Source of the DNA: Prorocentrum cordatum
Taxonomy: Eukaryota; Sar; Dinophyceae; Prorocentrales; Prorocentraceae
Assembly (NCBI GenBank): GCA_963575745.1
Contig: CAUYUJ010001750.1
Span: forward strand, 31,001 to 95,000
Direction: 5' to 3'
DNA length: 64,000 nucleotides
The position numbers and the translations under genes are program-made. The notes below the pieces were generated by a model. That model had not been told where the DNA came from. It was given only the letters and a program-made list of their open reading frames with translations, and searched no databases. Position 1 is the stretch's first letter, and every line of letters begins with the position of its first letter. Shown here in pieces: positions 1,530-51,546 of the stretch.

Positions 1530-3707
1530 GGATTCGAATGGAAGATCGAGTCGCTCGAGGTCGCGTTTATCGGTTTCTCGGAGAAGCCAAAACAGCCTAT
1601 CCTGGTTCGGGTTCAGGATCAGATGGTGCCGTTCAAAGTAGTTGACGAGATGAATGTCTTGGGGAACAGCATATACTGTAGCTATAGGGAGGCACACCAA
1701 GACCTTCGGCGACGGATCGGGTCCGCACGACGAGCCTTCCATGCGCATGCAGCCTATTTTAGATCGAAGGCAGTCCCTTTTTCGGCCAAGTGTAGGAGTT
1801 ATATCACTCGGGTTCAGAGCATCCTCACCTATGGAAGTCAAGGTATTAGTTGGGACAGGGACTCTTTGCATAGCCTGAATGTCTTTGAGGGAAATTGCCT
1901 TTACCAGATGACGTCACCCCAAAAGCCTGCCTCCGAAAGTTGGGTAGTTTGGAAGCCAGCTCGACTCAGAATTGCTAGACGGATGTTCTTTGAAGCCAAG
2001 TGCCAGAGTGCAGTGCAGAGAGTCCTTTATTCCTTGTGGCAGCTCGGAGCGGACATAGCATCATATTTCGGAGCCAATGTCGATAGCGGATATCAGATTC
2101 CTGAGTCGGAGCTGAGCCCAGGGATGGTCGCGGTCTCTTCAGTTACCAATGGGATGGTGGAGGTCTCTTCAGTTACCAATGGGATGGGTGCTGTCTCTTC
2201 AGTTACTAATGGGATGGGTGCGGTCTCTTCAGATACGAAGGGGATGGGTGTGGTCTCTTCTGATATGCATGGGATGGTCTCTTCTTCAGTTACCAATGGG
2301 ATGGGTGTGGTCTCTTCAGTTACTAATGGGATGGTGGAGGTCTCTTCAGTTACCAAGGGGATGGGTGCTGTCTCTTCAGTTACTAATGGGATGGGCGCGG
2401 TCTCCTCAGATACGAATGGGATGGGCGCGGTCTCCTCAGATATGCATGGGATGGTCTCTTCTGCTATGCCCTCTGATAGGGCCTCTTCTTCTCGAGATAT
2501 TGAAGTTCCCTGTGAGCGGGGGGGGCCTAGGGATCCCCCCAGGCCCCCCCCGAAGCGTCGGAGGATGGCAGTTCCTGGACCTGGACAACAGACGGTGTTT
2601 CCTCGTGCGCATCGAGACGCACGCCGGCTTCTGATGTGCTGTACCCCGAGGTGGGAGGAGAAAAGGACACTTGAGTCAAAATATTTGCGTTCCCAGTGGA
2701 AGTGGAAGGAGGCCTCGAAACTGACACGATTAGGCAGTGCTAAGGGGCAGGCGACGGGTGAACATCCTTGGTGTTTCATGTTCCAGACGATATTTCCCTC
2801 GTTTGTGAATCTGGAGGATCGTTGGTGGAGGGCGTGTTCTTTCTCTTACTCTGACTTCGTTCAGTATTGCAGGCAGTTCCTGGAAGCTTGTACTTTGGGT
2901 TCTCTGTTTGACTTGTTTGTTGTCCGTGGAGGAACTGGAGGACGAGGAAACTACATGAAGGAGAGGGGGGAGGAGATGATGGCTCGTCCGTTGTCGGTGA
3001 AGGAGTCTGAGAAGCTGGCCCAGAGATTGGCCTCGAACAATGAACAGGAGCCGACTTGGGATCTGAGTGATGACGGGATCGGTCTGGAGCTGACGGGAGA
3101 TTCGCTTCTTATCTGTAATTGGATCAACGGTCTCTGGAAGGTTGAGGGTGGAGAAGGAGGAGATGGGGCTTCTTATCGTAGGCGGGTTGCAAATATTATT
3201 TCTCTGTTGGAAGAATTGGAGGAGGAAGGAGTACGACCCCCCTCATGGGGCAACGACTTTATTCGACACATATATCGGGAGAGTAACACAGTAGCTGATG
3301 AACTTACCCATCTAGCACGGGAAGGCCAGATATTCAGAGAGCTGTTCCACCACCATATCTTTCGCCCTGATGTTCAAGACAACTTTCGAGTTATTGGCCT
3401 CCGCGGATCCTTCGACGGCGGAGTGTGTGCCCAAGGTGTGGGCGTCGGCTGGTTTCTGCAGATTGGATATATCCCTCGCTTCCATGATCCGTACCCTGAC
3501 CCTGAACATAGAGATAAGAGAGCTCGGGTAGTCTCCCTCTTCCCCCAAGCCTCCTCTCCTTGTCCAATCATATGGGAAGTAGTAGGGCGTTGTGCACAGG
3601 CACTCCCCTCCCATAGCAGTATCACTGACGCTGAGCTTTCGGGTCTCGAGGGCCTCTTGCGGGCCGCAGCCCAGGTGGCCCAAGACCTCCAGCTGCAGAG
3701 AGACTAG
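1530..3707 (+). pseudogene. LINE ORF2 C-terminal part: end of RT, repeat linker, permuted RNase H-like domain
   Basis: The uninterrupted frame runs from the element's truncated 5' end to TAG at 3,705-3,707 (725 codons); the first ATG is 1,623. Residues 1-190 match the post-catalytic RT region of elements C and E (MNVLG, RRIGSARRAF, RVQSILTYG, FEGNCLYQM). Residues about 195-315 are a decapeptide minisatellite. The last ~200 residues contain, in order, GDSLLICNW (about 3,099), YRESNTVADELTHLAR (about 3,276), LRGSFDGG (about 3,400) and TDAELSGLEGLL (about 3,625). These are RNase H-like motifs in permuted order. Endonuclease and RT catalytic motifs are missing, so the copy cannot move by itself. 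The long open frame without stops suggests a fairly young insertion. Confidence 0.8.
2120..2470 (+). repeat. 30-bp coding minisatellite
   Basis: Eleven to twelve units of 30 bp encode SSVTNGMGAV-like decapeptides. A longer duplication is visible: the string from VEVSSVTNGM to SDMHGMVSS occurs at about 2,158-2,290 and again at about 2,335-2,463. The unit keeps the reading frame. Confidence 0.9.
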
Positions 3708-20109: not shown

Positions 20110-20416
20110 CGCCCAGTTGGTCGACCCGGCCTTAAGAGACAAAGTGGTGACTTTGGGTCGGTTTTGCAAAGATTTGAAAGATATTTGACAATTCATTTTG
20201 AGGAACCAGATTTTTCGCACCTGTAATGGGTTATGACGCGTGCGCCTCTAAAATTTCCAGGCCAGTAGGTACAGTATTACTACCAAAACAATTGGAGCAA
20301 CCGACGTCATATCAAAATCGAAACACGTAATTTTTCTAGTTTTTCGGGGCTCGCCCTAGAAGCTTCCTTCATGTGTTCCGAGGAGCGCGGTGTCAGAAAA
20401 GAGCTCTACGAGGGTC
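20110..20416 (+). repeat. beta module variant
   Basis: Ends AAAGAGCTCTACGAGGGTC, then CCGGCGGT (20,417-20,424), where element B interrupts the hairpin. No gene seen. Confidence 0.8.
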
Positions 20417-20424
20417 CCGGCGGT

Positions 20425-22462
20425 CATGTTGATCCGACAGCTTCGCTGCACACGTACAGTCAGGCTCACACACATGTCCATTCGTCTTTGCCTGTGCCTC
20501 AGTTGTCTGGCCAACGTTCTTTGGAGTCCGCGCCCAGCTTTATTCAGACAGCTACGCTGCACACTCACAGTGATGATTCAACACATGTCCATTCTTTGTT
20601 GCCTGTGCCGCAGGTGGATGACCGTTCTTTCGACACGTTGCCCAGTTATATTCAGACAGCTACGCTGCACACGAACAGTGGAGTGCATACACACCCTCGT
20701 TCGATGTCTTCTGTGCCGCAGGCTGAGAGAGGAAGTTCTTTCGATCAGTTGCCTTGTTATATTCCGACAGCTACGCTGCACACACACAGTACACACTCTA
20801 TTCATTCTCATTGTCCGCCTCGTGCTTTGTCTCAGAGTGAGTGTTTCGCCTGAGCCCCAGAGACCTGCGGCTATGTTTGATAGCCGTGGGGGACTGACGG
20901 AGCACAAAAAAGATTGTCAACGTTCTTCTGGTCGTGTGTCGTCTGCGTCCAGTATAAGAGTTTCTTTGGAGCCGAACAAAAAGGATGCTCATTGTTCTTC
21001 TGGTCGTGTGTCGTCTGCGTCCAGAATAAGAGTTCCTTTGAGTGATCCGCTGCAGGTGGCGCATCTGTTTGAGTGCGCCAGGCTCCTGGAAGAAAGGAGC
21101 AGCCAGCGCGAATCCCAAGGCGCTGTCAGTCCTGCGGCCACAGCCCCCCCAGTCGAAGGCGAGAGCGACCCCACGCCCGCGGCCAAGAACCGTCGCAGGC
21201 AGATTGTGGAGACCCGTCTGGCCGCCAGGGGAGAGAAGCGGTGCCCTGGCCCGAGTCTCACGGCGAGCCAGGAGGAGCTCGCCAAGCGTGTCAGACAGCC
21301 CCAGCGCCCATGCGACAAAAGAGATCGGGATGAAATATGTTCGCCAAGGGGCAGTCAAAAGAGACGGTGTATTGCTCAGGTGAATGATGACCCCATCGCT
21401 TCCGCCGATAGTCTGTCTGCTGCCCCACAGGGAAGTAAGCGACCACGGGACCCCCCCTCTTCTAACCATGATAGTGAGCCGCGAGAGGCACGACCCTCTG
21501 GCGCAAACGTGAATGTCTTCAAACTCAACGCCTACTCTCAGGCGCGGTTGGGCATGATGCATGCGTCAGGTGACTGGGCCGCTCATCGTCGCGCGTTCGC
21601 TGCACGCTCGAGGGATTCCCAGGCTGCTCTTCTTGGATGGCGTGGTGGTACTAAATACGTCGGTTGGAGAAAATGGGAAGATGTCTTCATTGCGGATCAA
21701 GATGGCAATACTAAATGGTGGGAGACTATGACGTTTGGGAAAGAAGATTGGTCGATTTTCGTTGAGAAGTTGCTCAAAAGATTGCACCTGCCCGCCATTC
21801 TTGACTATCTGGCCAAACCTAGAGTTTCGGTTGCCCGTACGGAGGAGGAGGAGACGAAAGTTAATAATGATAGGATTGCGCGTCGCATTGCTCATAACTT
21901 TGAAAATGAGACTATCTTTGACTATGAGGCGGATAAGATTCCATTTGAAATACTGGGTGACAGCTTGTGTGTGGTCCAATGGATAAGAGGGCACTGGAGG
22001 TGCACGAACATGGGCTATAATAACACCTTGGAGGCGGCACAAAACACTCTTGATGCTATAACGGACACCTGTTTGAGAACTGCGTGTGCGGGGGCTGACC
22101 CAATCAAACATCTTTATAGGGAGGGTAACAGTTATGCTGATGAACTCACGTGGGCTTGCAGAGCTTGCCCACACACATCGAAGAGAAACGAGTATCTTGC
22201 CCCTTTATATACTTCGAAAGTGTTAGGATTGAGGGGTTACTTCGACGGAGGCACCTCGGATATTGGGGCTGGGGGAGGCTGGTGGCTGCAGGCTTTTGTA
22301 GAACATAAAAATGCTATACAGTGTCACGTGATTGCCGAGGAGGCGTTTGGCCTCGATAGGGAGTCAACCGTGACGGTCTGTGAGTTAACGGCCGCCTCGA
22401 AGCTAATTCACGCAATCTCGCAGATTGCGTCTGTTATAGATAGCGTCTCACACGCTCGGTAG
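20425..22462 (+). pseudogene. LINE ORF2 C-terminal part: repeat linker and permuted RNase H-like domain
   Basis: The open frame, in phase with the conserved C-terminus, runs through the element to TAG at 22,460-22,462. The first part is a four-fold 108-111-bp repeat. The middle is a basic, low-complexity linker. From about 21,520 the protein matches element C: NAYSQARLGMMHASGDWAAH, then an ~80-residue Trp-rich domain. Then come FEILGDSLCVVQWIRGHW (about 21,946), LYREGNSYADELT (about 22,111), LRGYFDGG (about 22,226), WWLQAF and TVCELTAASKLI (about 22,370). Endonuclease and RT are absent. The AEL box reads CEL here. A second frame is open across the repeats (to 20,853). Confidence 0.75.
20438..20800 (+). 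repeat. 108-111-bp tandem repeat, four units, each with a micro-hairpin
   Basis: CAGCTTCGCTGCAC or CAGCTACGCTGCAC occurs at 20,438, 20,549, 20,657 and 20,768. The unit is a multiple of three. Each start carries CAGC-N3-GCTG, the same short palindrome found in the 3' tails of the other elements. Confidence 0.85.
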
Positions 22463-26122: not shown

Positions 26123-29100
26123 CGGTGCCCAGCTTCTGTTGGAGGTTGGAACGTTCGGAGGTTGGGAAGATACACCTCCGAGTGCATGAATCACATTGCC
26201 GAATTAAAGATTTCCATCGTCGGGGTCCAAGAGAGCCAGTTCTTACACGACTTGGATCTTGCAGATGCGGGTTGGGATATACATCGCTCGGCAGATGAAG
26301 GGGAGAACGTGGGGAGACGGGCTGCCATCTTGTGCCGAGGTGTATGGAGACATCTGCTTATCGATGTTGTGTGTGGTCGTCGCTGGGTCATTGCGATCTT
26401 TCGCAAGCTCATCTTCGTTTCTGTCTATCTCCCTCATAAGGAGTCTGAGCGGGGTGCACAGGGTGAAGCACGCCGTTCTCCTGAAGGGTTTCTCGCTAGT
26501 TTCAAGCTCTATACGGACGTGTTATCGGATCTTGTTGCACATGTCTCTGCGGCCAAAAAGCGATTTCACATTGAGGAGGTTGTTATCTCGGCTGACGCCA
26601 ACGTGGAGGTTTTCCCGCACCACAGGATCAATGGGGTGGAGGTTACGGGGGAGGCGGTGAATGGGCCTATACGTAAGAGGGGGAGGTCTAGTGGAGGTGA
26701 CGAAAGTAGAGCCAACAGGATGAGGGAGATGTACTCGGGGGCCTTTCTGAAGACCATGGGGGCCCTCAAGTTGCAGCTAGCCAACACTTTTGGGAATCGT
26801 CAGCCTACTTGGAGACACAATTCGAGCACATACGAGCACGTCTATGATTATCTTGCGGTCCCAGCTTCCTGGATGACTCCAGAGGTGACTTGTTCTTGGG
26901 TTGTGCCGTCCCAGGTCCCACGGTCGGAGGCGACGGAAAGGACGTTCAGCGATCACAAGCTCTTGTGTGCCGAGATGCCCGCCCAGCATGCTCAGTTGAG
27001 GTATCGACGCCGGCCTCAGCTCAAGACCTGGAAGCTTCAGCCAGGGTTCGAGCTCCAGCAAACAGCCGGCTTGGAGAGAGCGATCTGCCAGCCCGAGCTC
27101 GTGAATCAGATCCACACGGACGTAGGTTTTGAGGTCATGACACAGAGTATACTTGAGGGTGCCAGTGAGACTTTGGATATCTCCCGTTCTCGTGGTCAGC
27201 CTGTTTCAGACTATCCCAGATATTCGGAGGAGGATTTACTGATAAAGGAGGAGTTCTTTAAGGTCAGGAAGAGGTGGAGGATGGCACGATGTGGTGGGGC
27301 TAACGTGGGACAGGAGGAGTACGAGAGAGTCCAGGAGGAGTATAAGGGGACAGCTAGGAGGTGGCGTCGAGTACGTAAGCGTCATGATCGTGCATGTGAG
27401 CTTTATCGTATTCGTGACGGTGTCCGTCGTAGGCCTGTTATTACGCACATGTATGTGGACGGGGTCCTCACGCGTGACCAGGAGAAGTGGATTGAGGGCC
27501 TTCGGCGTCATGGGCTCCTGAGGTACTCTAGCGATCCCCACCGACAGGACACCAACGCGTGCTTGGATGAGCTTAAGAACCAGTGTAAGGCCCTGCGAGA
27601 CTCTGGAGAGCCCCACCGCAACCCGATCAACATGGGTCTCTTGCTGGAGGCACGGTCTAGACTCAGGGAAGGACGGGCAACAGGTGCAGACGGGGTGACG
27701 TCATCGGTGCTCAAAGCATTGCCATGGGAAGCCCTCCGACACATACTTACCCTATTCCGTTTGCTGTATGATCAGAAACATGTTTCACCGAAGTCCTGGA
27801 GAGAGATCTTGGTATGCTTGATGCCTAAGAATCCCAAGGCTCGTGATTTTGAAGAAACGCGGGCCCTTTCACTTCTTTCTCATTTTGGTAAGTGGTATAG
27901 CAGTTGTCTATGTGTACTTCTAGAGCACCGCGTTCGGCAGGCTGCACCGCCAGGTTGCAACTTATATGGCTTTATCGCGGGGCACAAATGTTATGAGGTC
28001 ACGGCCCCCCTCAAACGTCTTGCTCAACACGGCGTTGTGTGGGGGAAGGAGGAGAGTCTTTATCTTGCAAGTGCTGATATTGAAAAGGCGTTTGATAATT
28101 TCACGGTGAGATGTGCAGCAGAGGCGCTTTTATTCCATCATGTCCATCCTGCCCTTGTGTATGCTGTCTTTGAGAGTTATGCTTGTAATACGGCAGAGAT
28201 CAGCTTCCAACAGTGTTCTACGACCATCTCGTGGGATACTTGCATACGTGCAGGTTCCTTGGAGGCGCCTTTGCTATTTGTTGCCCAGACACTCCGTATG
28301 CTTGCACCAGTGACGGCAGGTTGGAGGCAGTCTGGATACGGCGTCAGGCTCACTGATGAGGCATCCAATCTTATGGTCAACCACTGGTTGTGGGCAGACA
28401 ATATTTTGCTGGCAGCAGCTTCCAGGCGAGAATTGACCCATATGCTCGAGGACTTGACTGGGGTCCTCCATCGCTTCGGTTTCAACTGGAAAGCATCTTC
28501 GATGGAGTTCTTGGCTTGTGGCGTCCAAGGTCCATTGCAGGATATCCGCCTGCCGGTGCCGGGGCTCCTGCCTGCTGAGATGGGTAGGAAGCGTTCTCGT
28601 GGGGCTTCCCAGAGCGCCGCAGGCCCTTCGGAGGAGATGATAGTGAGGCAGGTGGAGAGGATGGAGGTTCTTGGCACGCTATTGGACGTACGATTTCAGG
28701 ATCATGAGGACATTAAGCACCGACTGGAGAAAGCACGGCGGGTCTTTATGAGTGAGATTTCTTTTTACTCGTCGCCCGTGGTTCCGCTTCGTTGTAAGTT
28801 TCAGCGTTATGATAGCAGGGTCAGAAGTTGCTTTCTGTACGGTTTGGAGGGTACGACTCTGGATTCGAGTAGTCTCCAACAGATACATGCAGCTGAAGGC
28901 AACTTCTTGTCCACCATGAGACGTCTCAAAAAGAAGATCACGGAGTCTTGGGGAGAGTACTGGGGCAGGAGGATTAAAGGTGGTCGTCGCTTATTGAAGT
29001 GGGCCCGTAAGCCTTCGATGGTCCAGCTCGCCCTTCATCGCCAGTGGCTCTTCGCCAAACATGTTGTGAGCACGATCCATGAGGAGCATAGTCGGGTGGA

Positions 29101-30391
29101 TGAGGACGCACTCAGTCAGGGCATTCTTTATCATGAACCACGAGATCCTGATATTTTTGGTGGTTCGCAGCGTTCCTTGGAGTTATCGGCTCCCTCGCCT
29201 ACCCCGAATGCCAGACAGCTCAACAGTTCGTGTAGGAGAAAGGCACAGAGCGCATCTTCCTTGGAAAATAGGTCAGTTCGCAGACGTATATCGGAGAACA
29301 CAGCACATGAGCATCATGATTCACAACATGTACATGAGCCTGTTCGTAAGCGGGTACGCCATACCTATGCACGGGAGGAGGAAGGAGGATTGCCCACTGC
29401 CAGTATGCAGAGCGCCTTGACGATGATGCACGCGTCGGGGGAGTGGACTGAGCAGCGTGACGTACATGTTAGAGCTCTCCCTGGGGGCCGAAGGTTTACC
29501 AGAGCCTGTCGTCATCGAGTCTTGACGGGACTTAGGCCTTGGTTCGAGGTCTTCGAGCACACGCACGGGGTTCATTGGGATCGTACGATGGTCTGGAATG
29601 AAACTGGCTGGCGTTCTTTCCTGGTGGGTACCCTGGCCGCCCTGGACTTGGATGATCTTCTCGAGTTCTGCCTTCTTCGGGATCCCTTCACGGGTGAGTT
29701 CAAGCAGGAGGAGGAGGGGGAGGAGAAGTCAGAGGAGCAGCAACGACGGGAAAATGAACGGGTGGCGAAACGACTGGCCGCGATAAATGATGATGAAACC
29801 ACTTGGCGTGGGGAAGGGGGTGGATATGGCTTGGAGCTCCGTGGGGATAGCCAGTGTGTTGTGCGCTGGCTTAATGGACGATATCGCTGTCACAATGAAG
29901 TATATCGCCGCACGATCAAGGGTATGCAGAACCGCCTTCACAGAATGAGTGAGGACCATCATCTTGTCACGGCTGAAGTGGGAAGGGATATGTGGAAATG
30001 GGTGTATAGGGAGGGCAACGATGAGGCGGACCATGAGACACATCTTGCACGTGAGGGTAAAGTAACTTCTGATGTTCGTTGGAATCATAACATTCTTTAT
30101 CATATTAGATCGGGTCATTATATTGTTCGTGCACTTAGAGGAGCTTTTGACGGTGGGCGGTGTGAACGTGGCACTTCGTGTGGTTGGGTTATGGATGCTT
30201 ATCTTGTTCCCTCTCTTCCTCCTCACCAACTTCCCCCTGGACTTGTGCAGGGCGGATGGCACCCTGGAGTTGGCCGCAGAGGTTTCATGGTCCCTAGCCA
30301 CTGCACGATCACACAGGCTGAGTTAGCAGCTGCACATTCGCTTCTCAATGGCATTGCCGAGATGTGTATACACGTACAGCTTGGCCGGTGA
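26123..30391 (+). CDS. LINE ORF2 polyprotein: APE endonuclease, reverse transcriptase, permuted RNase H-like domain
   Basis: The frame continues directly after ORF1's TGA. Numbering below starts at TTG 26,162. GWNVRRL, the first strand of an exo-endo-phosphatase fold, lies just before residue 1. Endonuclease residues are VQES (E24), SADANV (D145, N147) and SDH (D264, H265). RT motifs are RATGADG (~507), motif A ADIEKAFD (D639, D645), motif B RAGSLEAPLLF, and motif C WADN (D746, N747 instead of the second Asp). The C-terminus has GDSQCVV (D1229), REGNDEAD (D1290), FDGG (D1330) and AEL (E1387), RNase H motifs in permuted order. The protein would nick the target, prime cDNA synthesis there and remove template RNA. 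The first ATG is at 26,186, after the first endonuclease strand. No internal stop, so possibly still active. Confidence 0.88.
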   Translation, partial: RCPASVGGWNVRRLGRYTSECMNHIAELKISIVGVQESQFLHDLDLADAGWDIHRSADEGENVGRRAAILCRGVWRHLLIDVVCGRRWVIAIFRKLIFVSVYLPHKESERGAQGEARRSPEGFLASFKLYTDVLSDLVAHVSAAKKRFHIEEVVISADANVEVFPHHRINGVEVTGEAVNGPIRKRGRSSGGDESRANRMREMYSGAFLKTMGALKLQLANTFGNRQPTWRHNSSTYEHVYDYLAVPASWMTPEVTCSWVVPSQVPRSEATERTFSDHKLLCAEMPAQHAQLRYRRRPQLKTWKLQPGFELQQTAGLERAICQPELVNQIHTDVGFEVMTQSILEGASETLDISRSRGQPVSDYPRYSEEDLLIKEEFFKVRKRWRMARCGGANVGQEEYERVQEEYKGTARRWRRVRKRHDRACELYRIRDGVRRRPVITHMYVDGVLTRDQEKWIEGLRRHGLLRYSSDPHRQDTNACLDELKNQCKALRDSGEPHRNPINMGLLLEARSRLREGRATGADGVTSSVLKALPWEALRHILTLFRLLYDQKHVSPKSWREILVCLMPKNPKARDFEETRALSLLSHFGKWYSSCLCVLLEHRVRQAAPPGCNLYGFIAGHKCYEVTAPLKRLAQHGVVWGKEESLYLASADIEKAFDNFTVRCAAEALLFHHVHPALVYAVFESYACNTAEISFQQCSTTISWDTCIRAGSLEAPLLFVAQTLRMLAPVTAGWRQSGYGVRLTDEASNLMVNHWLWADNILLAAASRRELTHMLEDLTGVLHRFGFNWKASSMEFLACGVQGPLQDIRLPVPGLLPAEMGRKRSRGASQSAAGPSEEMIVRQVERMEVLGTLLDVRFQDHEDIKHRLEKARRVFMSEISFYSSPVVPLRCKFQRYDSRVRSCFLYGLEGTTLDSSSLQQIHAAEGNFLSTMRRLKKKITESWGEYWGRRIKGGRRLLKWARKPSMVQLALHRQWLFAKHVVSTIHEEHSRVDEDALSQGILYHEPRDPDIFGGSQRSLELSAPSPTPNARQLNSSCRRKAQSASSLENRSVRRRISENTAHEHHDSQHVHEPVRKRVRHTYAREEEGGLPTASMQSALTMMHASGEWTEQRDVHVRALPGGRRFTRACRHRVLTGLRPWFEVFEHTHGVHWDRTMVWNETGWRSFLVGTLAALDLDDLLEFCLLRDPFTGEFKQEEEGEEKSEEQQRRENERVAKRLAAINDDETTWRGEGGGYGLELRGDSQCVVRWLNGRYRCHNEVYRRTIKGMQNRLHRMSEDHHLVTAEVGRDMWKWVYREGNDEADHETHLAREGKVTSDVRWNHNILYHIRSGHYIVRALRGAFDGGRCERGTSCGWVMDAYLVPSLPPHQLPPGLVQGGWHPGVGRRGFMVPSHCTITQAELAAAHSLLNGIAEMCIHVQLGR

Positions 30392-36669: not shown

Positions 36670-39600
36670 CGTTTGCGGCGCCTCGTCAGAGGCATACATT
36701 TGGCGAGCTGGAACCTGAACAAAGCAGGTGAGGCTCATTTTAAATGTGCTGAGATTCTCCATCATATGAGGGCATGTGGTGGGCTCTTTGCATGTCAGGA
36801 AACTCAATACCTTGTGCATGGTGAATTTGAACGCTTGGGGTGGCGCATCAAAACTAGTTCGTGTAGCAAGGCAGCTCTCATCTTCGACAGATCTTGGGCG
36901 GCTGCCGTCCGCATGTTCTTTACTTGTTTCACGAGGTTCGTTATCGGCGTCTTTGGGTCAGAAAAGTCACCACTTATTATTGTGTCAGCGTATTTGCCAG
37001 ACCCTCATGTGGAGGATTGTGTAGAGATAGCTGCGGAGGTCTATGAGCAGATCAGTCGTGCTCGTAATGTTCTCCGCACTAAGTTTCCTCTGGCCAGCTT
37101 TTGTGTTCTGCTCGATGCAAATGTGGAGATTCCGCCTGGATGCAAGTTTACGTATAATGGGGAGGAGTATGGGGCTACTGGAGAGGAGGGTACTCGTACG
37201 GACAGAAGGTGGGAGAGAGGAGGGGATGGTACACAGCAGATTGAGAGGAGGAGTCGGAGGAGGAGGCTGAAGGAGCTGCTCTTAGAGTTCATGGAATCAC
37301 ATGGACTGAAGGCCGCCAACACTTTCAGCACTAGGAGGCATACCTGGGAGTCGTGGGGGGAGAACAAGTTTCTGACTTCGAAGAGGGTCCTGGATTACCT
37401 ACTGGTCCCTCATCGCTGGGAGTTCTCGGATCTGGAGGTGAAGTGGTGTTTCAAGAGGGGTGGGAAGAAGCAGTTCAGTAGATTATCCGATCACGCTATC
37501 AGCACGGCGAGTTTCACTGACCCTGGGAATGTGATTGTTCGTCGCCCTGACCCCCAGCCTGGTCAGAAGTCGAGGCCGTCCCTGGTCGGATACAAGTGTT
37601 CGACTTGGGCTGATGAGCATCAGGCTCGGCAGCATGTGGATTTGAATCTAGGCGGTGCGGCCTTCGCTCGTTCAAGGTGTCCGTCTGTGACCTGTCCACA
37701 GTGCTTGCAGAGTACTATGCTGGAGGCGTACTTATCACCGACGGTGGACTACTCCACCACGGGTGCGAGAAGACCAAGAGAGCCGTCCAGGCCGGTGCAG
37801 CTCACAAGAGCCGAGGAGGAGGTTAAGATGTGTCCGAAGGAGGATGTGGAGAGGTTGAGGAAGTTAAAGAATGGGGCCAATCGTCTACGCAGAAGTTACC
37901 GACGTGATATGATTATGTGCAGATGCCCCCCAACAAAGCGTAAGATCATATATACTATCAAACATTTAGTGGTGGATGGGAGGGAGACGGAGGACCGTGA
38001 GGAGTGGAAGGAGGAGCTCGACAAGTTCGTTCGTTTCAAGGTGTCGTCCGAGGAGGTACGCAATTCCACCAACAGTATGATGGAGGAGATCAGGATGAGG
38101 GCTGTACATGAGGTACGATCCACATCAGTTGTGGGAATTAGTATGGCGCTGCTTCTCAGAGCACGTGCTCGGCTGAAGACCCAGAGGGCTACTGGGCCAG
38201 ACGGGATACCGTGCGAGATTCTAAGGAGCTTGCCGTGGTGTGCTCTCAGAGCGATCCAGAAGTTGTTCGATAAAATCATCAAGCTCACGATTCCGTATCC
38301 TCAGTCGTGGCGTGAGATTCTCGTCTCTTTTATGCCCAAAATTCCAGGGATTACTAAGTTAAAAGACGGTCGTTTGCTGTGTATGCAGAATGCTGTTTCG
38401 AGATGGTTCAGTTCCTGTATTGTTCTCCTGGTTGAGGGCCATATTGAAAGAAACGGAGTGTTTCGTCATATTGGGTTGTATGGTTTCCAGGAACACCGTC
38501 GTACACACGAAATCACGGCTAGCATCAAACACATAGGTCAACATGCTGCACAATGAAGAAAAGGGGAAACGGCACACTTGGCGAACGCTGATGTCTTCCA
38601 GGCGTTCGATCACTGCACGGTGGCCAATGTCAGGCGCGGGTTGGATCATGCGAGTGTGCCCCTATACCTACAGTATGCTCTACTTAACCCCTTGTGCGAA
38701 TGTGTAGGCACTGTCTATTATGATGGGATTGAGGTTTTGGAGGTAAGGTGGGACAAATGTATTCGGACGGGAGGGCCTGAGGGCCCGTTGGCTTTCAACC
38801 TTATTGTTGCTGCTATGTGGAGTTCCACGATTCGAGAATGGGACGTACCAGGACTAGGTTATCGTATTGAGTTTGCGACTGGCTCGACTAGCTGTGTTTC
38901 GATTATTAATCACTTCCTTTGGGCGGACAACTGTTATGTTCTGGCTCGGAGTCGGGAGGAACTCACGCGCATGATATACGGTCTAGCTACACAGTTACAT
39001 GACTATGGCATGAAATGGAAAGAGTCCAGTCTATTGTACATGGTGTTCGGGGTTGATCCTCCGCGAGATGCGGAAGGGGAAATATTACGCACTGCTGATC
39101 TTGTTCTCTCGATGGGGTCGGAGGAGTCGGGAGTGTATCGATTTAGAGGGGTGACGGAGATGGAGGTGCTTGGGGCTCATATTTGTTCTGAACTACATGT
39201 GAATGAGCATCCAGATTTGGATGCTAGTATTGACTCTGCTCGCAGGGCTTTCTCGGGGCAGGCGACCTTCTTCCGCTCCACGGCCATCCCGTTGAAAGAT
39301 AAGTATGAGAGGTATGCACAGAGGGTTCAGAGTATTGTTCTCTACGCGGCGGAAGGATGTACGGTCGACTCTAGTTCATTGAGTGCCCTTCATATCTTTG
39401 AGGGTAAGTGCCTGGCTGTAATGTCTCGTTGTATACGGAGGGATGAGGAAAGTTAGCAGGAATGGAATACGAGGAGGTATGAACGTGCGAGACAAAAAAT
39501 TCATGATGCACACTATGCGGGTATTGCACAGAAGTTTCTCAGAGTGCACTGGATGTGGGCAATCGACATCCATGATTTTGCCCATAGGTTGATCACATAT

Positions 39601-40630
39601 CGGGAGGCGCTGGAGTCAAACTCGACAAGAGCTTGGAGAGATTCTCGCTTCTCATGCCTGGCGTTTGGCCGACTGTGGGATAGAATGAGGACAGATTCAA
39701 GCGAGGCTCTCAGATGTTGGGGGAATTGGAAGGAGGCCAGCTCAATGAAACGACATCGGGGGGGGGCAGGAGAGTGTAGGACCTCGTCCGTGGTACTATT
39801 CATTGGAATCGTTTTATGGTTTATCCTGGTGGGAGTTCTTTGCTGGAAGTTTTGAACGTTTCATGGATTTCGCTGCACGTGTTTGTTCTAGTACTATGTT
39901 GAAGTATTTCCAAAAGAAGTGCAAAGGTCTGGCGTCCTCAGGGGTGCCTGTGTTCTTGAACTTGGATGAGGATGGAGGGGTTCATGTTGGTCAGGATCGG
40001 GAGGATACACCAGCATATAGGGATCGTCTCAGCAAACGTATTGCGTTGCATAACATGCGTTGTACCCAGTGGGACCTCGAAACGGATGGGATACCACTGG
40101 ATATCCAAGGGGACTCACTGCTTGTGATTAACTGGCTCTGTGGGAAATGAAAAGTATTAGCTCAGGTATATCAGAAAAGGGTGGATACTCTGATTAAAAA
40201 GTTGGACGAGATGCAGGAAACATACTCGGTGAGGCCTCCAGAGGCTGGCCGTGACTTCTTCTCTCATTATTTTCGGGAATGGAACCAGAGAGCTGACTTA
40301 CTGACCCATCAGGCCCGTCAGGGCCACGTGTACGCCGATTTCGTTTACCTCAGCGATTTTGAATCTCAGTGTTATACTCCTTGCCTTATCAAAGCCGGCT
40401 TTGATGGGGGCGTTTGTAGCCGCGGAAGTGCCTGTGGTGTGTGGATACAGATTGGTCTGCGAAACAAATATATCTTCTCGCGGACCGACATCATTTTCAA
40501 GGATGTGTATCTTGCGGCTTGGTGTCTGCCACCAAGCGCCACTGTTACAGATGCGGAACTATCAGCGGCGGAGCGCATATGCGATGTGCTCCCACAGGTA
40601 GTGCAGACCTTCTTTGATCATTCGCAGTGA
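36670..40630 (+). pseudogene. LINE ORF2 of element E: endonuclease, RT, permuted RNase H-like domain
   Basis: Continues in frame after ORF1's TGA (36,667-36,669). Endonuclease: LASWNLN (~36,705), CQETQ (~36,797), LLDANVE (~37,110), SDHAIS (~37,487). RT: RATGPDGIP (~38,190), ADVFQAFD (~38,587), RTGGPEGPLAF (~38,765), LWADN (~38,918). RNase H-like: QGDSLLVINW (~40,108), FREWNQRAD (~40,270), GFDGG (~40,397), TDAELSAAE (~40,547). Lesions: TGA 38,554, TAG 39,454, TGA 40,148 and an extra G in a run of nine near 39,760, each absent from the copy at 44,983-47,952. The frame otherwise matches C's domain order and length. Confidence 0.85.
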
Positions 40631-40890
40631 TAAGTCACACATTGTTTCTTCTTTATCTGTGTTCTTGTTTATTCCAACAGCTTCGCTGTTCACTGACTCA
40701 TTCGTTTGTCTTTTGTGTGCTTTGCGTTTGATTGTGTCATTGCGGCATGTGATTCTCTTTATTCCTTCAGCTTCGCTGTGTGGTATAAGAGCTGACTGCT
40801 TGCGTGATAAATAAGAGGCTCTGTTCCGCCTGTTACTTTGTTGGACCTGGCCTTAGTGGCCAAGATGGTCCCAGCAAAGACGCAAAAAAG
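40630..40890 (+). promoter_or_regulatory. 3' tail of element E
   Basis: Contains AACAGC-TTC-GCTGTT at about 40,676 and CAGCTTCGCTG at about 40,768, then the A-rich CGCAAAAAAG end. Confidence 0.6.
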
Positions 40891-40898
40891 AAAGGTTG

Positions 40899-41023
40899 AT
40901 AGTGCGGCACTCTCGATTGATCCAACTTCAACAGTGACTGATGCCGAGATCTCGGCCGTTGAGCATACGATTATAATCTTGCCGCGGGTTGTACAAGCGT
41001 ATTTCGGACAGGATATGATGTGA
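40899..41023 (+). pseudogene. C-terminal end of RNase H-like domain in E2
   Basis: The translated end STVTDAEISAVEHTIIILPR then VVQAYFGQ aligns with E's own C-terminus (ATVTDAELSAAERICDVLPQ then VVQTFFDH). Only the permuted domain's last motif (AE) survives. Confidence 0.75.
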
Positions 41024-41222
41024 TTTTGATTGTGCTCACTCACGCCATGCCTTTGTTTGTCGTGTGTGTGTGTGCTTGACCTCTCATCCTCCTAATAAGA
41101 GTTGGCTTTCGCCTCTGATCGTTTGGATCGGTGAGGCTTCCGCCTACTCCCGATGCGCCCGCTCCTTGCTTCCGACTAGGCTGGAAAGCCTGCGCAGTCG
41201 ACCGCAAAGTCCGCAAAAAAGA
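40899..41222 (+). mobile_element. LINE fragment E2, 3' end only
   Basis: Starts directly after E's AAAGGTTG and ends CCGCAAAGTCCGCAAAAAA before GAGAGGTTGACGG and the arm TTACCGCCAG (41,235-41,244). It is a severely 5'-truncated relative of E whose left target copy was used again by E. Confidence 0.75.
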
Positions 41223-41244
41223 GAGGTTGACGGTTTACCGCCAG

Positions 41245-42327
41245 CGCCCAGTACAAATTTGAGGTACCTCGTAGAGCACTTTGGCATCGGTGAGCTCGAG
41301 GAATGCCGGCGCGGGCGGGAGCTAGTAACTCGTAGAGCTTCCCTAAGCTAGTTTCTGGAAGCTGAAGAGTAATTCCGGCGTGCTGGAGAGCTAGTTGGCA
41401 AGAAAAGTCTCGATGGACCTTTTGCTGACTTTTGGTCGTTTGAAAATTTTGTTCTCGAAATTCAACCATTCGTTGGAGCTCTAGTATTTTTCCGTGATAT
41501 TCGAGCTTATTTCCGCTCGCTGTCTCGATCTGAGCTCGATCGGGTACCTTTCACTGCCAAAAAACGTCGGGATCGGCCGTTTCGAGTCATCTTGACAGGC
41601 GTGGTCGGTTTTCGTATTTAACTCAAACTATAGGACAGCTACGGAGCTGATACTTACAGAAACCGATGCACAATCATCAGACGTGTTCGTCTGTTGAATC
41701 GATAGCTCTGAACTCGGTATGCTGCTCGAGCTATGTCCGCGAAACTATTTGTATGGTTCGAGTCATCTTAAGAGGTGCTGTCAGCTTTCTGTACTTAACT
41801 CGGGCTGTAGTGCGGCTACAGGGCTGGTAATGACGGATCCGATTTAGAGAAAAGAGCCACGTCTGCCTGTCGAATCTCGAGTCCGAACTCGGTCTGCTGC
41901 CCAAGCTAGGTCCGCGAACTTATTCGTATTGTTCGAGTCATTTTCAGAGGTGCTGTCGGTTTTCTGCACTTAACTCGGGCTGTGTGTGTGTGTGGGGGGG
42001 CTAGAGGGCTGGTAATCACAGGAATTGATTTGAAGACATGAGGCGCGGCCGCCTGTCGCATTGAGAGGTCTGATCTCGGTCTGATACTCGAGCTAGGTTC
42101 GCGAAGCTATTCGTATTGTTCGACTCATCTTGAGAGGTGCTGTCGGTTTTCGCACGTAACTCGGGCTGTAAGAGAGCTACAGAGCTCGTACGCACAGAAA
42201 ACGATCCAGAAACATGAAAGGCGTTCGGCTGTTTCATTGAGAGGTCTAAAATTGCCCGGGCTGGAGAACTATTTGTTCTCTGCAATTTTTTCCGACATTC
42301 TATATGCTCCGGAAGCTCTACGAGTCA
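41245..42327 (+). repeat. alpha module after E2
   Basis: Short CTCGTAGAGC... fragments to ~41,395, then leader and about four monomers. One monomer carries a (TG)n-G run at about 41,980-42,000 that differs in length from the second copy. No gene seen. Confidence 0.82.
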
Positions 42328-42361
42328 CCGGCGGTAAGAAAGGTTGACGGTTTACCGCCGG
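42328..42361 (+). repeat. module-boundary hairpin
   Basis: Perfect TAA/TTA-type arms; left context CGAGTCA. Confidence 0.92.
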
Positions 42362-42658
42362 CGCCCAGTTGGTCGACCCGACGAGAACGGACAAAGTGAT
42401 AACTTTTGGGTGGTTCTGCGAATATTTGAAAGAAATTTGATCATTTATTTTGAGAAAGCAGATTTGTACGCGTAGCATTAGAATCTGAAGTTCATTCTTA
42501 AAGCAGCTCAGCTCTCCAGAGAGAGTGTTACTATCTGAAAATCAGCGGGAACCGACATCGGAGTGACATCGAGAAGTGGAAAGTTGACGTTTTTCGAGAA
42601 AGGGCCCGAGAAGCTGTCTACTTCGATTCTGGTGCCTGCAAGGAGCTCTACGAGGTTC
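42362..42658 (+). repeat. beta module variant
   Basis: Related to 17,388-17,657. Ends GGAGCTCTACGAGGTTC before the interrupted hairpin arm. No gene seen. Confidence 0.8.
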
Positions 42659-43118
42659 CCGGCGGTGACTAGGTTGTCGCTGTCCCTCCTCGGGGATCTC
42701 AGCGGTGACCTGGCCCGTCGGTGGCCTCCTCGAGCCGCATTGTGCGGACAGGTGTCTGTGTGCACACACGTATCGTACATTCACTGTACAGGGGCCGTCC
42801 CATATCTTCGTGTACTTCGTCGGCTGTGACGACCTCCTCTCCGTGGGCCTACAGACGATAGGCGCCAGGTTCTCTGTTGTGTCAAGTGAGACAGCTCCCG
42901 TCGGAGCAGGTGCATAGGCCGCTTGCTTTGTTTGTACTCGTTACATTTGTTATCTTGTACTTCCAGGCCGCCTGCTTTGTACTTGTTGCATTGTCTGCTT
43001 GCACTTCCAGGCCGCTTGTGGTGTACTTGCTGCATGCGTTATCTTGTTCGAGTTGCTCTCAGCACGTATCCAATTTTGATTTGGTCGCAGTCGGAGTACT
43101 CTTTTCGCAACGCAGTGG

Positions 43119-43236
43119 GAACCTTCGAGGGGTGGTTGGAATCGTTTCTTTCGAGAGCTTGAGGCTGACCTTTACGACGAACGTGAGCATACGACTCTTG
43201 TCTTACCGCGGGTTGTTACGGCATACTTCGGACTTT
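43119..43236 (+). pseudogene. ORF1 N-terminus fused to RNase H C-terminus in G
   Basis: One frame reads EPSRGGWNRFFRELEADLYD, which aligns with C ORF1 (PSRGWDKFLEELENEHYRDL), and continues straight into EHTTLVLPRVVTAYFG, which aligns with the E2 C-terminus (EHTIIILPRVVQAYFG). The whole endonuclease, RT and most of RNase H are missing between them. The join coincides with GAGCATACGA, present in E2 at the matching place. Confidence 0.7.
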
Positions 43237-43404
43237 GTGTTTGCGTTGTCTCTTGCCTTGCTGTGTGTGTGTGTGTGTCGGGCATGCGCGCATGTTGGTA
43301 TAAGAGTTCCGCGTGTTCTTCACTTTGTTTGGAATAAGAGTTTTGCATTTGCCCACTCCCACTCCAAGAGTGGTGGGCATCTTGCCTGACTATGTATGCC
43401 ACCC

Positions 43405-43725
43405 GTTTTGTCTCAGTGGTGTTGAGACGGTAATCGCTGTATAAAACAGTGGTTACGTGCAAAAGTCGTTGCTGTGTTTCACGTGCGTGGTCTTTCAGAG
43501 GTGCTGAGACGGTAATCGCTATATGTGGTTACTGCATGGTCTCGCATTGCTTCGAAGTGTACTCGTCATTCTAGTTGTTAGTTTTGTGTTTGTCTCAGTT
43601 GTGTTGAGACGGGAATCGCTGTATAAACCAGTGGTTGCTGTATGGTCTCTCACTGCTTTTATTTTCAGTGGTGCTGAGACGGTAATCGCTATATGTGGTT
43701 ACTGCATGGTCTCGCACTGCTTTGC
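43405..43725 (+). repeat. TGAGACGGTAATCGCT repeat block in G
   Basis: Four diverged units of ~80-100 bp (about 43,411, 43,493, 43,596 and 43,668) with TGAGACGGTAATCGCT and, in two, AACCAGTGGTT-type palindromes. D has a single unit at ~32,335-32,440. Confidence 0.75.
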
Positions 43726-43919
43726 TTCCCTCGTTCTATTTGTCTTCTCGTGTATTGGCAGTCTTGTGCATATCTGTACAGCTTCGCTGTTTGATGCACT
43801 TCTGCTTTAATCTTCCAGCTTCGCTGCCTCTGTGCAGCTTCGCTGTTAGTATATTACGTGTCCTGGGCTGCTCCCTTGGGAGCTCGAATCGGCCAACGCA
43901 GACATCGCAGACTAGGTTG

Positions 43920-44029
43920 ACGGTTTACCGCCAGCGCCAGTTTGTCTAGAAATGCTCCGAGAAGGTGTTTGCTTTCAATCTGAGCACTCTTACGCGTGGG
44001 AGGAGCTGTGCGAGGTTCCCGGCGGTGAC
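43920..44029 (+). repeat. hairpin right arm of G and short beta end
   Basis: ACGGT, TTACCGCCAG (43,925-43,934), then the last ~85 bp of a beta module up to CCGGCGGTGA (44,019-44,028), the left arm of H's target. Confidence 0.75.
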
Positions 44030-44206
44030 AGCTGTTTCTTCGATGTGTGTATATATCTGTACAGCTACGCTGTTGTAATATATCTGCACAGCTACGCTGA
44101 CCTGTATATCCGCACAGCTCCGCTGTTAGTGCTTAGGTTGCCTGTAGGTAATCCTACCGCTGGCCCTGCCCCCTAAGTGGGCTCGAATCGGGCCCCGCAG
44201 ACCGCA
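44030..44206 (+). mobile_element. element H, tail-only copy of a C-type LINE
   Basis: About 177 bp matching C's last ~180 bp (30,445-30,622), with micro-hairpins CAGCTACGCTG (twice) and CAGCTCCGCTG and the end CCCCGCAGACCGCA. Followed by GACTAGGTTGACGG and TTACCGCCGG (44,222-44,231). Extreme 5' truncation stops right after the hairpin's left arm. Confidence 0.8.
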
Positions 44207-44231
44207 GACTAGGTTGACGGTTTACCGCCGG

Positions 44232-44982
44232 CGCCAGTCTAAAACCATCTAGCTCTCAGAGAGCTCTCCGGGAACAGTTCTATAGCTTATAGAACCAAGA
44301 AAAACAGTACCACTAGGGGGAAAGTAGCAAACTACAAATCCGTGTTTGGCGTCTGCGCTCACAACAGACCCAAACCAAGCGTCTAGATGCTTCGCGCCTC
44401 ATGATCTGCTTCTAATTTTTGGCTGAATAGCTGAGTTCAGTGGAGAAATTCACCATCTATCGGTCGAGTACAGTTAGTTTTGCGAACCTGGCTCAGGTAG
44501 CAGACCGAGTGCAGACCTCTCGATGCAATAGACGAACGCATCTGATGCTTCTGGATCGGTTTCTGTGCGTACCAGCTCTGTAGCTTTCCTACAGCCCGAG
44601 TTCAATGCAGAACGCGCACCTAGTAGCAAAAACCCACTTCAGACCTCTAGATGCAACAGACGAACCGGCCTGATAATTCCAAATCAGATTCTGCGCGTAT
44701 CACCCCTGTAGCTCTCCTACAGCCTGAGTTACGTGCGAAAACCGACAGCACCTCTCAAGATGACTCGAACGATACGAATAGTTTCGCAGACCCATCTCGA
44801 GTAGCAGGATTTCAGACCTCTGGATGCAACAGAGGAACGCGCCAAAACTGGCGCCGGCGGTTAACCGTCAACCAGGTTACCGCCGGGGCCCTCGTAGAGC
44901 TTTTTTCTCGCACGGCGCTTCTCGGTACACATGAAGGAAGAGTCTGGAGCAATATCCAAATTAGCCTGGCGAAGGACCCAAC
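44232..44982 (-). repeat. inverted alpha segment with inverted hairpin
   Basis: The only long minus-oriented alpha block in the window (repeated in duplication copy 2). The monomers read as reverse complement (CTGATGCTTCTGGATCGG, CTCTGTAGCTTTCCTACAG). The hairpin at 44,854-44,886 is also reversed (CCGTCAACCAGG in the loop) and has one misaligned arm. No gene seen. Confidence 0.8.
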
Positions 44983-47952
44983 CGGCCTTCGCTCGTTCAA
45001 GGTGTCCGTCTGTGACCTGTCCACAGTGCTTGCAGAGTACTACGCTGGAGGCGTACTTATCACCGACGGTGGACTACTCCACCACGGGTGCGAGAAGACC
45101 AAGAGAGCCGTCCAGGCCGGTGCAGCTCACAAGAGCCGAGGAGGAGGTTAAGATGTGTCCGAAGGAGGATGTGGAGAGGTTGAGGAAGTTAAAGAATGGG
45201 GCCAATCGTCTACGCAGAAGTTACCGACGTGATATGATTATGTGCAGATGCCCCCCAACAAAGCGTAAGATCATATATACTATCAAACATTTAGTGGTGG
45301 ATGGGAGGGAGACGGAGGACCGTGAGGAGTGGAAGGAGGAGCTCGACAAGTTCGTTCGTTTCAAGGTGTCGTCCGAGGAGGTACGCAATTCCACCAACAG
45401 TATGATGGAGGAGATCAGGATGAGGGCTGTACATGAGGTACGATCCACATCAGTTGTGGGAATTAGTATGGCGCTGCTTCTCAGAGCACGTGCTCGGCTG
45501 AAGACCCAGAGGGCTACTGGGCCAGACGGGATACCGTGCGAGATTCTAAGGAGCTTGCCGTGGTGTGCTCTCAGAGCGATCCAGAAGTTGTTCGATAAAA
45601 TCATCAAGCTCACGATTCCGTATCCTCAGTCGTGGCGTGAGATTCTCGTCTCTTTTATGCCCAAAACTCCAGGGATTACTAAGTTAAAAGACGGTCGTTT
45701 GCTGTGTATGCAGAATGCTGTTTCGAGATGGTTCAGTTCCTGTATTGTTCTCCTGGTTGAGGGCCATATTGAAAGAAACGGAGTGTTTCGTCATATTGGG
45801 TTGTATGGTTTCCAGGAACATCGTCGTACACACGAAATCACGGCTAGCATCAAACACATAGGTCAACATGCTGCACAATGGGGAAAAGGGGAAACGGCAC
45901 ACTTGGCGAACGCTGATGTCCTCCAGGCGTTCGATCACTGCACGGTGGCCAATGTCAGGCGCGGGTTGGATCATGCGAGTGTGCCCCTATACCTACAGTA
46001 TGCTCTACTTAACCCCTTGTGCGAATGTGTAGGCACTGTCTATTATGATGGGATTGAGGTTTTGGAGGTAAGGTGGGACAAATGTATTCGGACGGGAGGG
46101 CCTGAGGGCCCGTTGGCTTTCAACCTTATTGTTGCTGCTATGTGGGGCTCCACGATTCGAGAATGGGACGTACTAGGACTAGGTTATCGTATTGAGTTTG
46201 CGACTGGCTCGACTAGCTGTGTTTCGATTATTAATCACTTCCTTTGGGCGGACAACTGTTATGTACTGGCTCGGAGTCGGGAGGAACTCACGCGCATGTT
46301 ATACGGTCTAACTACACAGTTACATGACTATGGCATGAAATGGAAAGAGTCCAGTCTATTGTACATGGTGTTCGGGGTTGATCCTCCGCGAGATGCGGAA
46401 GGGGAAATATACGCACTGCTGATCTTGTTCTCTCGATGGGGTCGGAGGAGTCGGGAGTGTATCGATTTAGAAGGGTGACGGAGATGGAGGTGCTTGGGGC
46501 TCATATTTGTTCTGAACTACATGTGAATGAGCATCCAGATTTGGATGCTAGTATTGACTCTGCTCGCAGGGCTTTCTGGGGGCAGGCGACCTTCTTCCGC
46601 TCCACGGCCATCCCGTTGAAAGATAAGTATGAGAGGTATGCACAGAGGGTTCAGAGTATTGTTCTCTACGCGGCGGAAGGATGTACGGTCGACTCTAGTT
46701 CATTGAGTGCCCTTCATATCTTTGAGGGTAAGTGCCTGGCTGTAATGTCTCGTTGTATACGGAGGGAAGGGGAAAGTTATCAGGAATGGAATACGAGGAG
46801 GTATGAACGTGCGAGACAAAAAATTCATGATGCACACTATGCGGGTATTGTACAGAAGTTTCTCAGAGTGCACTGGATGTGGGCAATCGACATCCATGAT
46901 TTTGCCCATAGGTTGATCACAGATCGGGAGGCGCTGGAGGCAAACTCGACAAGAGCTTGGAGAGATTCTCGTTTCTCATGCCTGGCGTTTGGCCGACTGT
47001 GGGATAGAATGAGGACAGATTCAAGCGAGGCTCTCAGATGTTGGGGGAATTGGAAGGAGGCCAGCTCAATGAAACGACATCGGGGGGGGCAGGAGAGTGT
47101 AGGACCTCGTCCGTGGTACTATTCATTGGAATCGTTTTATGGTTTATCCTGGTGGGAGTTCTTTGCTGGAAGTTTTGAACATTTCATGGATTTCGCTGCG
47201 CATGTTTGTTCTAGTACTATGTTGAAGTATTTCCAAAAGAAGTGCAAAGGTCTGGCGTCCTCAGGGGTGCCTGTGTTCTTGAACTTGGATGAGGATGGAG
47301 GGGTTCATATTGGTCAGGATCGGGAGGATACACCAGCATATAGGGATCGTCTCAGCAAACGTATTGCGTTGCATAACATGCGTTGTACCAGTGGGACCTC
47401 GAAACGGATGGGATACCACTGGATATCCAAGGGGACTCACTGCTTGTGATTAACTGGCTCTGTGGGAAATGGAAAGTATTAGCTCAGGTATATCAGAAAA
47501 GGGTGGATACTCTGATTAATAAGTTGGACGAGATGCAGGAAACATACTCGGTGAGGCCTCCAGAGGCTGGCCGTGACTTCTTCTCTCATTCTTTTCGGGA
47601 ATGGAACCAGAGAGCTGACTTACTGACCCATCAGGCCCGTCAGGGCCACGTGTACGCCGATTTCGTTTACCTCAGCGATTTTGAATCTCAGTGTTATACT
47701 CCTTGCCTTATCAAAGCCGGCTTTGATGGGGGCGTTTGTAGCCGCGGAAGTGCCTGTGGTGTGTGGATACAGATTGGTCTGCGAAACAAATATATCTTCT
47801 CGCGGACCGACATCATTTTCAAGGATGTGTATCTTGCGGCTTGGTGTCTGCCACCAAGCGCCACTGTTACAGATGCGGAACTATCAGCGGCGGAGCGCAT
47901 ATGCGATGTGCTCCCACAGGTAGTGCAGACCTTCTTTGATCATTCGCAGTGA
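44983..47952 (+). pseudogene. LINE ORF2, duplicated copy of E: RT and permuted RNase H-like domain
   Basis: The copy starts inside ORF2, after the endonuclease region. RT motifs are present: RATGPDGIP (~45,515), ADVLQAFD (~45,912), RTGGPEGPLAF (~46,090), LWADN (~46,243). RNase H-like motifs follow in the same permuted order (GDS ~47,435, FREWNQRAD ~47,595, GFDGG ~47,722, AELSAAE ~47,875). It lacks E's three stops. It has two one-base deletions of its own: a T near 46,410 (AAATATACG) and a C near 47,389 (GTACCAG). The upstream extension of the open frame into the inverted repeat is accidental. Confidence 0.85.
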
Positions 47953-48220
47953 TAAGTCACACATTGTTTCTTCTTTATCTGTGTTCTTGTTTATTCCAAC
48001 AGCTTCGCTGTTCACTGACTCATTCGTTTGTCTTTTGTGTGCTTTGCGTTTGATTGTGTCATTGCGGCATGTGATTCTCTTTATTCCTTCAGCTTCGCTG
48101 TGTGGTATAAGAGCTGACTGCTTGCGTGATAAATAAGAGGCTCTGTTCCGCCTGTTACTTTGTTGGACCTGGCCTTAGTGGCCAAGATGGTCCCAGCAAA
48201 GACGCAAAAAAGAAAGGTTG

Positions 48221-48545
48221 ATAGTGCGGCACTCTCGATTGATCCAACTTCAACAGTGACTGATGCCGAGATCTCGGCCGTTGAGCATGCGATTATAATC
48301 TTGCCGCGGGTTGTACAAGCGTATTTCGGACAGGATATGATGTGATTTTGATTGTGCTCACTCACGCCATGCCTTTGTTTGTCGTGTGTGTGTGTGCTTG
48401 ACCTCTCATCCTCCTAATAAGAGTTGGCTTTCGCCTCTGATCGTTTGGATCGGTGAGGCTTCCGCCTACTCCCGATGCGCCCGCTCCTTGCTTCCGACTA
48501 GGCTGGAAAGCCTGCACAGTCGACCGCAAAGTCCGCAAAAAAGAA
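48221..48545 (+). mobile_element. LINE fragment E2, duplicated copy
   Basis: Second copy of 40,899-41,222, with the RNase H-like end at about 48,221-48,345. One codon differs (HAI versus HTI). Confidence 0.75.
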
Positions 48546-48565
48546 AGGTTGACGGTTTACCGCCA

Positions 48566-49645: not shown

Positions 49646-49679
49646 CCGGCGGTAAGAAAGGTTGACGGTTTACCGCCGG
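49646..49679 (+). repeat. module-boundary hairpin
   Basis: Perfect TAA/TTA-type arms; copy of 42,328-42,361. Confidence 0.92.
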
Positions 49680-49976
49680 CGCCCAGTTGGTCGACCCGAC
49701 GAGAACGGACAAAGTGATAACTTTTGGGTGGTTCTGCGAATATTTGAAAGAAATTTGATCATTTATTTTGAGAAAGCAGATTTGTACGCGTAGCATTAGA
49801 ATCTGAAGTTCATTCTTAAAGCAGCTCAGCTCTCCAGAGAGAGTGTTACTATCTGAAAATCAGCGGGAACCGACATCGGAGTGACATCGAGAAGTGGAAA
49901 GTTGACGTTTTTCGAGAAAGGGCCCGAGAAGCTGTCTACTTCGATTCTGGTGCCTGCAAGGAGCTCTACGAGGTTC
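49680..49976 (+). repeat. beta module, duplicated copy
   Basis: Copy of 42,362-42,658. No gene seen. Confidence 0.85.
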
Positions 49977-49994
49977 CCGGCGGTGACTAGGTTG

Positions 49995-51521: not shown

Positions 51522-51546
51522 GACTAGGTTGACGGTTTACCGCCGG

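Follow-up and report, generated by a model that had tools for sequence, protein, structure and literature searches.

The sequence comparisons and structure models presented here suggest that the last ~190 residues of open reading frame (ORF) 2 in a group of long interspersed nuclear elements (LINEs) very probably form a circularly permuted type 1, archaeal-type RNase H. The elements lie in a 64,000-nt stretch of Prorocentrum cordatum DNA (contig CAUYUJ010001750.1, positions 31,001 to 95,000 of the forward strand), the whole of which we refer to as the window, and represent four lineages that we call A, B, C and E. In all four the C-terminal motifs run in the order GDSxxVV, REGNxxAD, FDGG..G and AEL, which places the second half of the canonical domain before the first. 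In the arrangement we propose, the chain would enter at canonical β4 (GDSxxVV), pass through αB, αC/D and the REGNxxAD helix, cross a linker of 35-40 residues and then form β1-β2-β3 (FDGG..GW) and helix αA (AEL), where the protein ends, with the D-E-D-R-D residues closing into what would be a single two-metal active site.

Motif order and homology of the two halves

The clearest example is LINE C, whose ORF2 is a single frame of 1409 residues (26162..30391, + strand) in which a reverse transcriptase (RT) is followed by a linker and then by the permuted RNase H at the C-terminus (29801..30388, +). Here GDSQCVV carries D1229 (29846..29848, +), which aligns to canonical DS as the counterpart of the third catalytic acid, and YREGNDEAD follows (REGNDEAD at 30008..30031, +), with R1283 at the archaeal-type Arg position and D1290 (nt 30029) as the fourth acid. 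Downstream of these, FDGG supplies D1330 (30149..30151, +), aligned to canonical DG as the counterpart of the first acid, and AEL supplies E1387 (30320..30322, +), the counterpart of the second, where the tail of our four-sequence profile falls on canonical columns 43-63. Motifs and residue numbers in C agree with the original prediction, which had read this motif order and these four acids from the letters of the window.

The same order recurs at the C-termini of A (3060..3704, +, in ORF 1623-3707; GDS 3096, RESNTVAD 3276, FDGG 3411, AEL 3630) and B (21881..22459, +, in ORF 20390-22462; GDS 21956, REGNSYAD 22118, FDGG 22241, and CEL in place of AEL at 22379), and in both copies of E. The E copy cited originally (40,108-40,560) belongs to a domain at 40094..40627 (+) that is interrupted by an in-frame TGA at 40148, whereas the second copy (47416..47949, +; GDS 47431, REWNQRAD 47596, FDGG 47722, AEL 47875) is open and 98.3% identical to the first. 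Because both copies sit in a 7.3-kb tandem direct duplication (37658-44983 and 44983-52298, 99.3% identity; a real duplication or an assembly effect), we count E as one lineage. When the permuted order was written as a regular expression and run through all six frames without stops, it matched at four places, namely A, B, C and the second E copy, and an expression for the canonical order gave no match in the six frames of the window.

The four domains are widely diverged, with C sharing 34, 34 and 30% identity with A, B and E, respectively, and with pairwise identities per half of 27-42% among the four lineages. Within their alignment 25 columns are invariant, and these include GDS, W, G, R-E-x-N-x-x-A-D, F-D-G-G, two more glycines and T-x-x-E-L. 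All four acids are among them, as had been predicted with the CEL of B already noted, and all five D-E-D-R-D positions are unchanged across A, B, C and E. For the first half, the identities pooled over the six pairs come to 0.45, 0.55 and 0.31 at codon positions 1, 2 and 3; the corresponding values for the second half are 0.47, 0.51 and 0.29, indicating that both halves diverged under protein-level constraint. An artefact as the source of the permuted order can be ruled out, in line with the earlier claim, since four lineages this far apart share it inside open frames.

At the level of sequence, there is clear homology between the GDS..REGN half and the canonical second half of RNase H. A profile of the four domains searched against 177,635 distinct PDB sequences returned 8 matches up to E 10, with RNases H at ranks 1-4 and 6; the top two were S. 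tokodaii RNase HI (E 0.0016 and 0.0018), and the others had E 0.023, 0.21 and 0.54. Profile columns 13-81 pair with residues 73-129 of the S. tokodaii enzyme, that is, with its second half. Moreover, when compared by hhalign with a 135-column reference alignment of canonical enzymes (27 RNases H, archaeal-type or related, of which 20 come from viral contigs and 7 are actinobacterial), the domain profile aligned over canonical columns 70-134 with E 1.2e-11.

For the FDGG..AEL half, homology to the canonical first half is supported by position, order and shuffles rather than by score alone. The next non-overlapping hhalign solution sets FDGG..GW on canonical columns 6-26 (β1) with catalytic Asp on Asp (E 0.018), and the tail by itself aligns best to columns 43-63, which correspond to the AEL helix. 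Column shuffles reached the observed score against the first 72 canonical columns in 0/300 cases for the whole second half, 0/300 for its head and 1/300 for its tail. We also looked for DGG followed, as in the canonical order, by AEL at a distance of 28-90 residues, and found this motif pair in 4/4 family members and 19/27 canonical sequences (seven of the eight that miss it are actinobacterial, with Ala before DGG); when the columns of the second half were shuffled 200,000 times, not one shuffle retained the pair in all four rows.

A permuted protein is expected to align unbroken across the junction of a canonical profile doubled end to end. In B, residues 22-181 did so on columns 68-193, crossing the junction as far as the AEL helix (81.6 versus 69.9 for the single profile), and C crossed it as far as β1-β2 (83.8 versus 75.3), gains that were matched by second-half shuffles in 1/150 and 0/150 trials, respectively. 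The case is carried by agreement among these sequence results, the score of the second half being weak when taken alone.

Predicted structure, contrary evidence and alternative explanations

AlphaFold models of B and C show β4-αB-αD-αE, a linker and β1-β2-β3-αA, which is most of the predicted permuted order, in a single domain with predicted TM-scores (pTM) of 0.78 for C and 0.74 for B. In the B model, the C-terminal half could be superposed on residues 3-70 of LC11-RNase H1. Structure prediction of this domain had been put forward as a check, and it returns most of the permuted elements in both models, with the exception of β5, which is not clearly modelled.

Several results weigh against a permuted RNase H. 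In the models, short strands at 73-75 (C) and 87-89 (B) precede the expected place of β5, and residues 78-88 of the C model have a predicted local distance difference test score (pLDDT) below 50. The structure searches, which compare in chain order, matched only half-domains of RNase H among the matches listed, with no whole-domain RNase H match among the 50 Foldseek matches listed; the top Foldseek match for both models was PelC (E 5.7e-4 and 1.2e-4), and the best RNase H match in a viral structure library covered 76 columns at E 0.049. RNase H was likewise absent from the VIA matches listed for the C model, a result that we do not count as evidence against RNase H. In sequence, the second half scores 17.8-20.6 (single sequences 12.3-18.1), upstream windows reach 17.2, and an upstream conserved segment used as a negative control scores 17.4, close to the second half itself. 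The doubled profile gives no gain for A (70.0 versus 69.7) or E (74.4 versus 74.5), AEL is replaced by CEL in B, and a search of PDB sequences with the full C ORF2 by itself returned no match up to E 1. Pfam RVT_3 does not appear among the matches listed for the full-length ORFs or for the native order of E; elsewhere its score peaks at 15.4 bits before rotation and 15.5 bits after it (cut-off 21.6). Rotating the letters extends no RVT_3 match into the first half. Ordinary domain searches here barely detect the rearrangement.

Among the alternatives, the one that survives best is a variant compatible with the permutation, in which the permuted fold is catalytically dead and is retained as a binding or tether domain; we regard this as rather unlikely. 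There is precedent in dual-RNase H long terminal repeat (LTR) retrotransposons, where catalytic residues are lost from the original domain, which comes to look like a tether (PMC5348765), and the RTs of C and E carry WADN at motif C in place of the usual xADD, which raises the possibility that these copies are inactive. Against this stands the invariance of D-E-D-R-D across four lineages whose halves are only 27-42% identical, and on the strength of that conservation the permuted RNase H is probably catalytically active. Of the 'working, permuted fold' that had been proposed, the permutation is upheld by sequence homology, by the alignment of acid on acid and by the two models, and the working part would follow from conservation.

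We think it very improbable that GDS..REGN is instead the leftover of one RNase H and FDGG..AEL the start of another, with any activity arising through a swapped ORF2 dimer. Each half by itself does resemble half a canonical domain, and some LTR retrotransposons are known to carry 'dual' RNase H domains (PMC5348765), but the spacing between the last catalytic Asp and the first is nearly constant at 40 (C), 39 (A), 35 (B) and 36 (E) residues, which fits one self-closing chain better than two independent halves. The similar constraint on both halves and the single domain made by AlphaFold, at the pTM values given above, also speak against two half-domains, as does the fact that remnants of the missing halves were not detected upstream. 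There, the best profile scores of windows from six upstream ORF pieces lay between 11.2 and 17.2; for five pieces the best window fell on canonical columns 68-132, and for the sixth (second E copy, 12.5) on six residues at columns 4-9; no first-half signal was seen in these windows, and 38554-40093 (first E copy) and 1301-1622 (A), each in three frames, stayed at or below 15.5. A complete canonical RNase H upstream had been named as one finding that would overturn the permutation, and none was detected by either the six-frame expression or the upstream profile windows. The upstream conserved segment was considered as a remnant second β4 half (17.4, columns 73-91) and judged a chance match; by eye, its position for the catalytic Asp is Gln in B and C and Asp only in A. 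No duplication intermediate was found.

Marginally less probable still is a different α/β domain whose second half bears RNase H-like motifs by chance, lying beside an RNase H second half that is genuine but incomplete. In favour of this reading, the FDGG..AEL half has a score close to background when taken by itself, and structure searches in chain order put other folds such as PelC first. Against it, the ordered motif pair is present in 4/4 lineages and in none of the 200,000 column shuffles, both ends of the FDGG..AEL half align to the expected canonical columns with their acids matched, and the superposition on LC11-RNase H1 described above covers the C-terminal half of the B model. A PelC-like fold is itself ruled out by a root-mean-square deviation of ~10-14 Å and a TM-score, taken by model length, of no more than 0.30.

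A circularly permuted RNase H thus remains the reading that we favour, and its position suggests a role. Target-primed reverse transcription leaves the cDNA paired with its template RNA, and an RNase H acting in cis can remove the RNA and free the cDNA. In C the RNase H lies downstream of the RT, and likewise in E, there after frame breaks, so that the domain is placed to strip template RNA from cDNA. We propose that after target-primed reverse transcription it would cleave the RNA in the RNA:DNA hybrid, leaving the cDNA free for second-strand synthesis. The permutation itself likely arose when an RNase H was duplicated in tandem and the two outer halves were lost, at a time before the four lineages split.

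Element architecture and surrounding sequence

The RT of C ORF2 spans residues 563-778 (RVT_1, PF00078; E 7.3e-8, 32.8 bits against a cut-off of 29.6) and RVT_1 is also above its cut-off in the second E copy (30.3 versus 29.6 bits). In the Pfam scan A and B had no RVT_1 match; A keeps only part of the C-like thumb region, which was not found in B. No endonuclease matched Pfam in C or E, and a possible N-terminal APE-like pattern was noticed only by eye. At RT motif C, where LINEs usually have xADD, we found WADN in C (28391-28402) and in both E copies (38920-38931 and 46245-46256), and [FYW]ADD does not occur in the three forward frames of the window. Between the RT and the RNase H lies a conserved segment (29399-29800 in C, 21527-21880 in B, 2598-3059 in A and 39776-40093 in E), bearing MMHASG(E/D)W in B and C.

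A further 34-residue tail segment (STVTDAEISAVEH...), which includes STVTDAEISA, lies at 40904..41005 (+) with a second copy at 48226-48327, and is 53% identical to the E tail. At 48226-48327 the identities by codon position are 23, 23 and 5 of 34, which indicates that the segment is old and was once coding; it probably represents the 3' terminus of a fifth lineage that shares this C-terminus and is heavily truncated at its 5' end. The sequence CAGCTNCGCTG occurs in 27 copies on the + strand within 20438-51430 and in none on the - strand, with eight of the 27 duplicating another eight through the tandem duplication. Some copies lie downstream of the C and E ORF2 stops, and A, B, C and E are all on the + strand; CAGCTNCGCTG is possibly a 3'-end recognition repeat. 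In 2-kb windows the GC content is 0.48-0.54 over 1-52000 and 0.60-0.66 over 52000-64000, and long tandem arrays with units of 77, 90 and 408 bp lie beyond ~52 kb. The window has no tRNA, no Rfam match at gathering score and no match to the dinoflagellate spliced leader with up to 3 mismatches.

Relation to known RNases H and retroelements

RNase H, the enzyme by which reverse transcription is completed, is among the best-studied folds and serves as a protein-folding model. If true, a natural permutation that keeps the catalytic residues would mean that evolution can alter the connectivity of this fold, that rotating the gene back would directly test whether chain order matters for the coupling of RNase H to RT, and that searches with canonical profiles can undercount retroelements that bear an RNase H. 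The literature we found, as far as its text was available, describes no natural permuted RNase H in a retroelement, and in a classification of the superfamily (PMC3985635) 'permut' occurs zero times in the main text. Permutation within the RNase H-like superfamily is not unprecedented, since the 2025 CIRPIN preprint (PMC12667903) describes a pair of RNase H-like domains in AFDB clusters that are related by a novel circular permutation; the accessible part of that preprint names no protein or organism for the pair, and 'retrotransposon' and 'reverse transcriptase' each occur zero times in its main text. No relatives of the domain were found in viral contigs (scans with C alone, with the domain alignment and with the RT alignment), in bacterial and archaeal genome contigs (domain alignment scan) or in phages and plasmids (tblastn). 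On balance we lean towards the view that no natural circular permutation of an RNase HI with a complete catalytic set had been described before this one, which would be fixed throughout a LINE clade that belongs to neither plants nor oomycetes and would be hard to see with canonical profiles; the clade may rely on the new termini to dock the RNase H onto the RT.

Other LINEs offer several points of comparison. Those of the I group have an RNase H, as do the elements here; theirs is of the H subtype and sits downstream of the RT in canonical order. Members of that group that carry the domain include I, R1, Loa, Tad1 and others (PMC4640811). Plant L1 (Ta11), oomycete L1-like and Utopia LINEs likewise combine a LINE RT with an archaeal-type RNase H, and in oomycete Utopia the whole RNase H domain has been relocated upstream of the RT (PMC4640811). 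These plant and oomycete domains were found or aligned by ordinary domain alignments, and the available part of the same study does not mention permutation (PMC4640811). In Repbase Update, retrotransposons with archaeal-type RNases H are described from higher plants and oomycetes only, in the part of PMC5348765 available to us. The closest solved sequences are those of archaeal-type RNase HI itself (S. tokodaii ST0753, PDB 2ehg and 3aly; RVT_3, PF13456), which has the same D-E-D-R-D with Arg in fourth place as the LINE domains described here, an arrangement recognized as the signature of the archaeal subtype (PMC4640811, PMC5348765). The archaeal-type enzyme runs β1-β2-β3-αA-β4-αB-αD-β5-αE, whereas the LINE domains fall below the Pfam cut-off and run from β4 to αE and then from β1 to αA.
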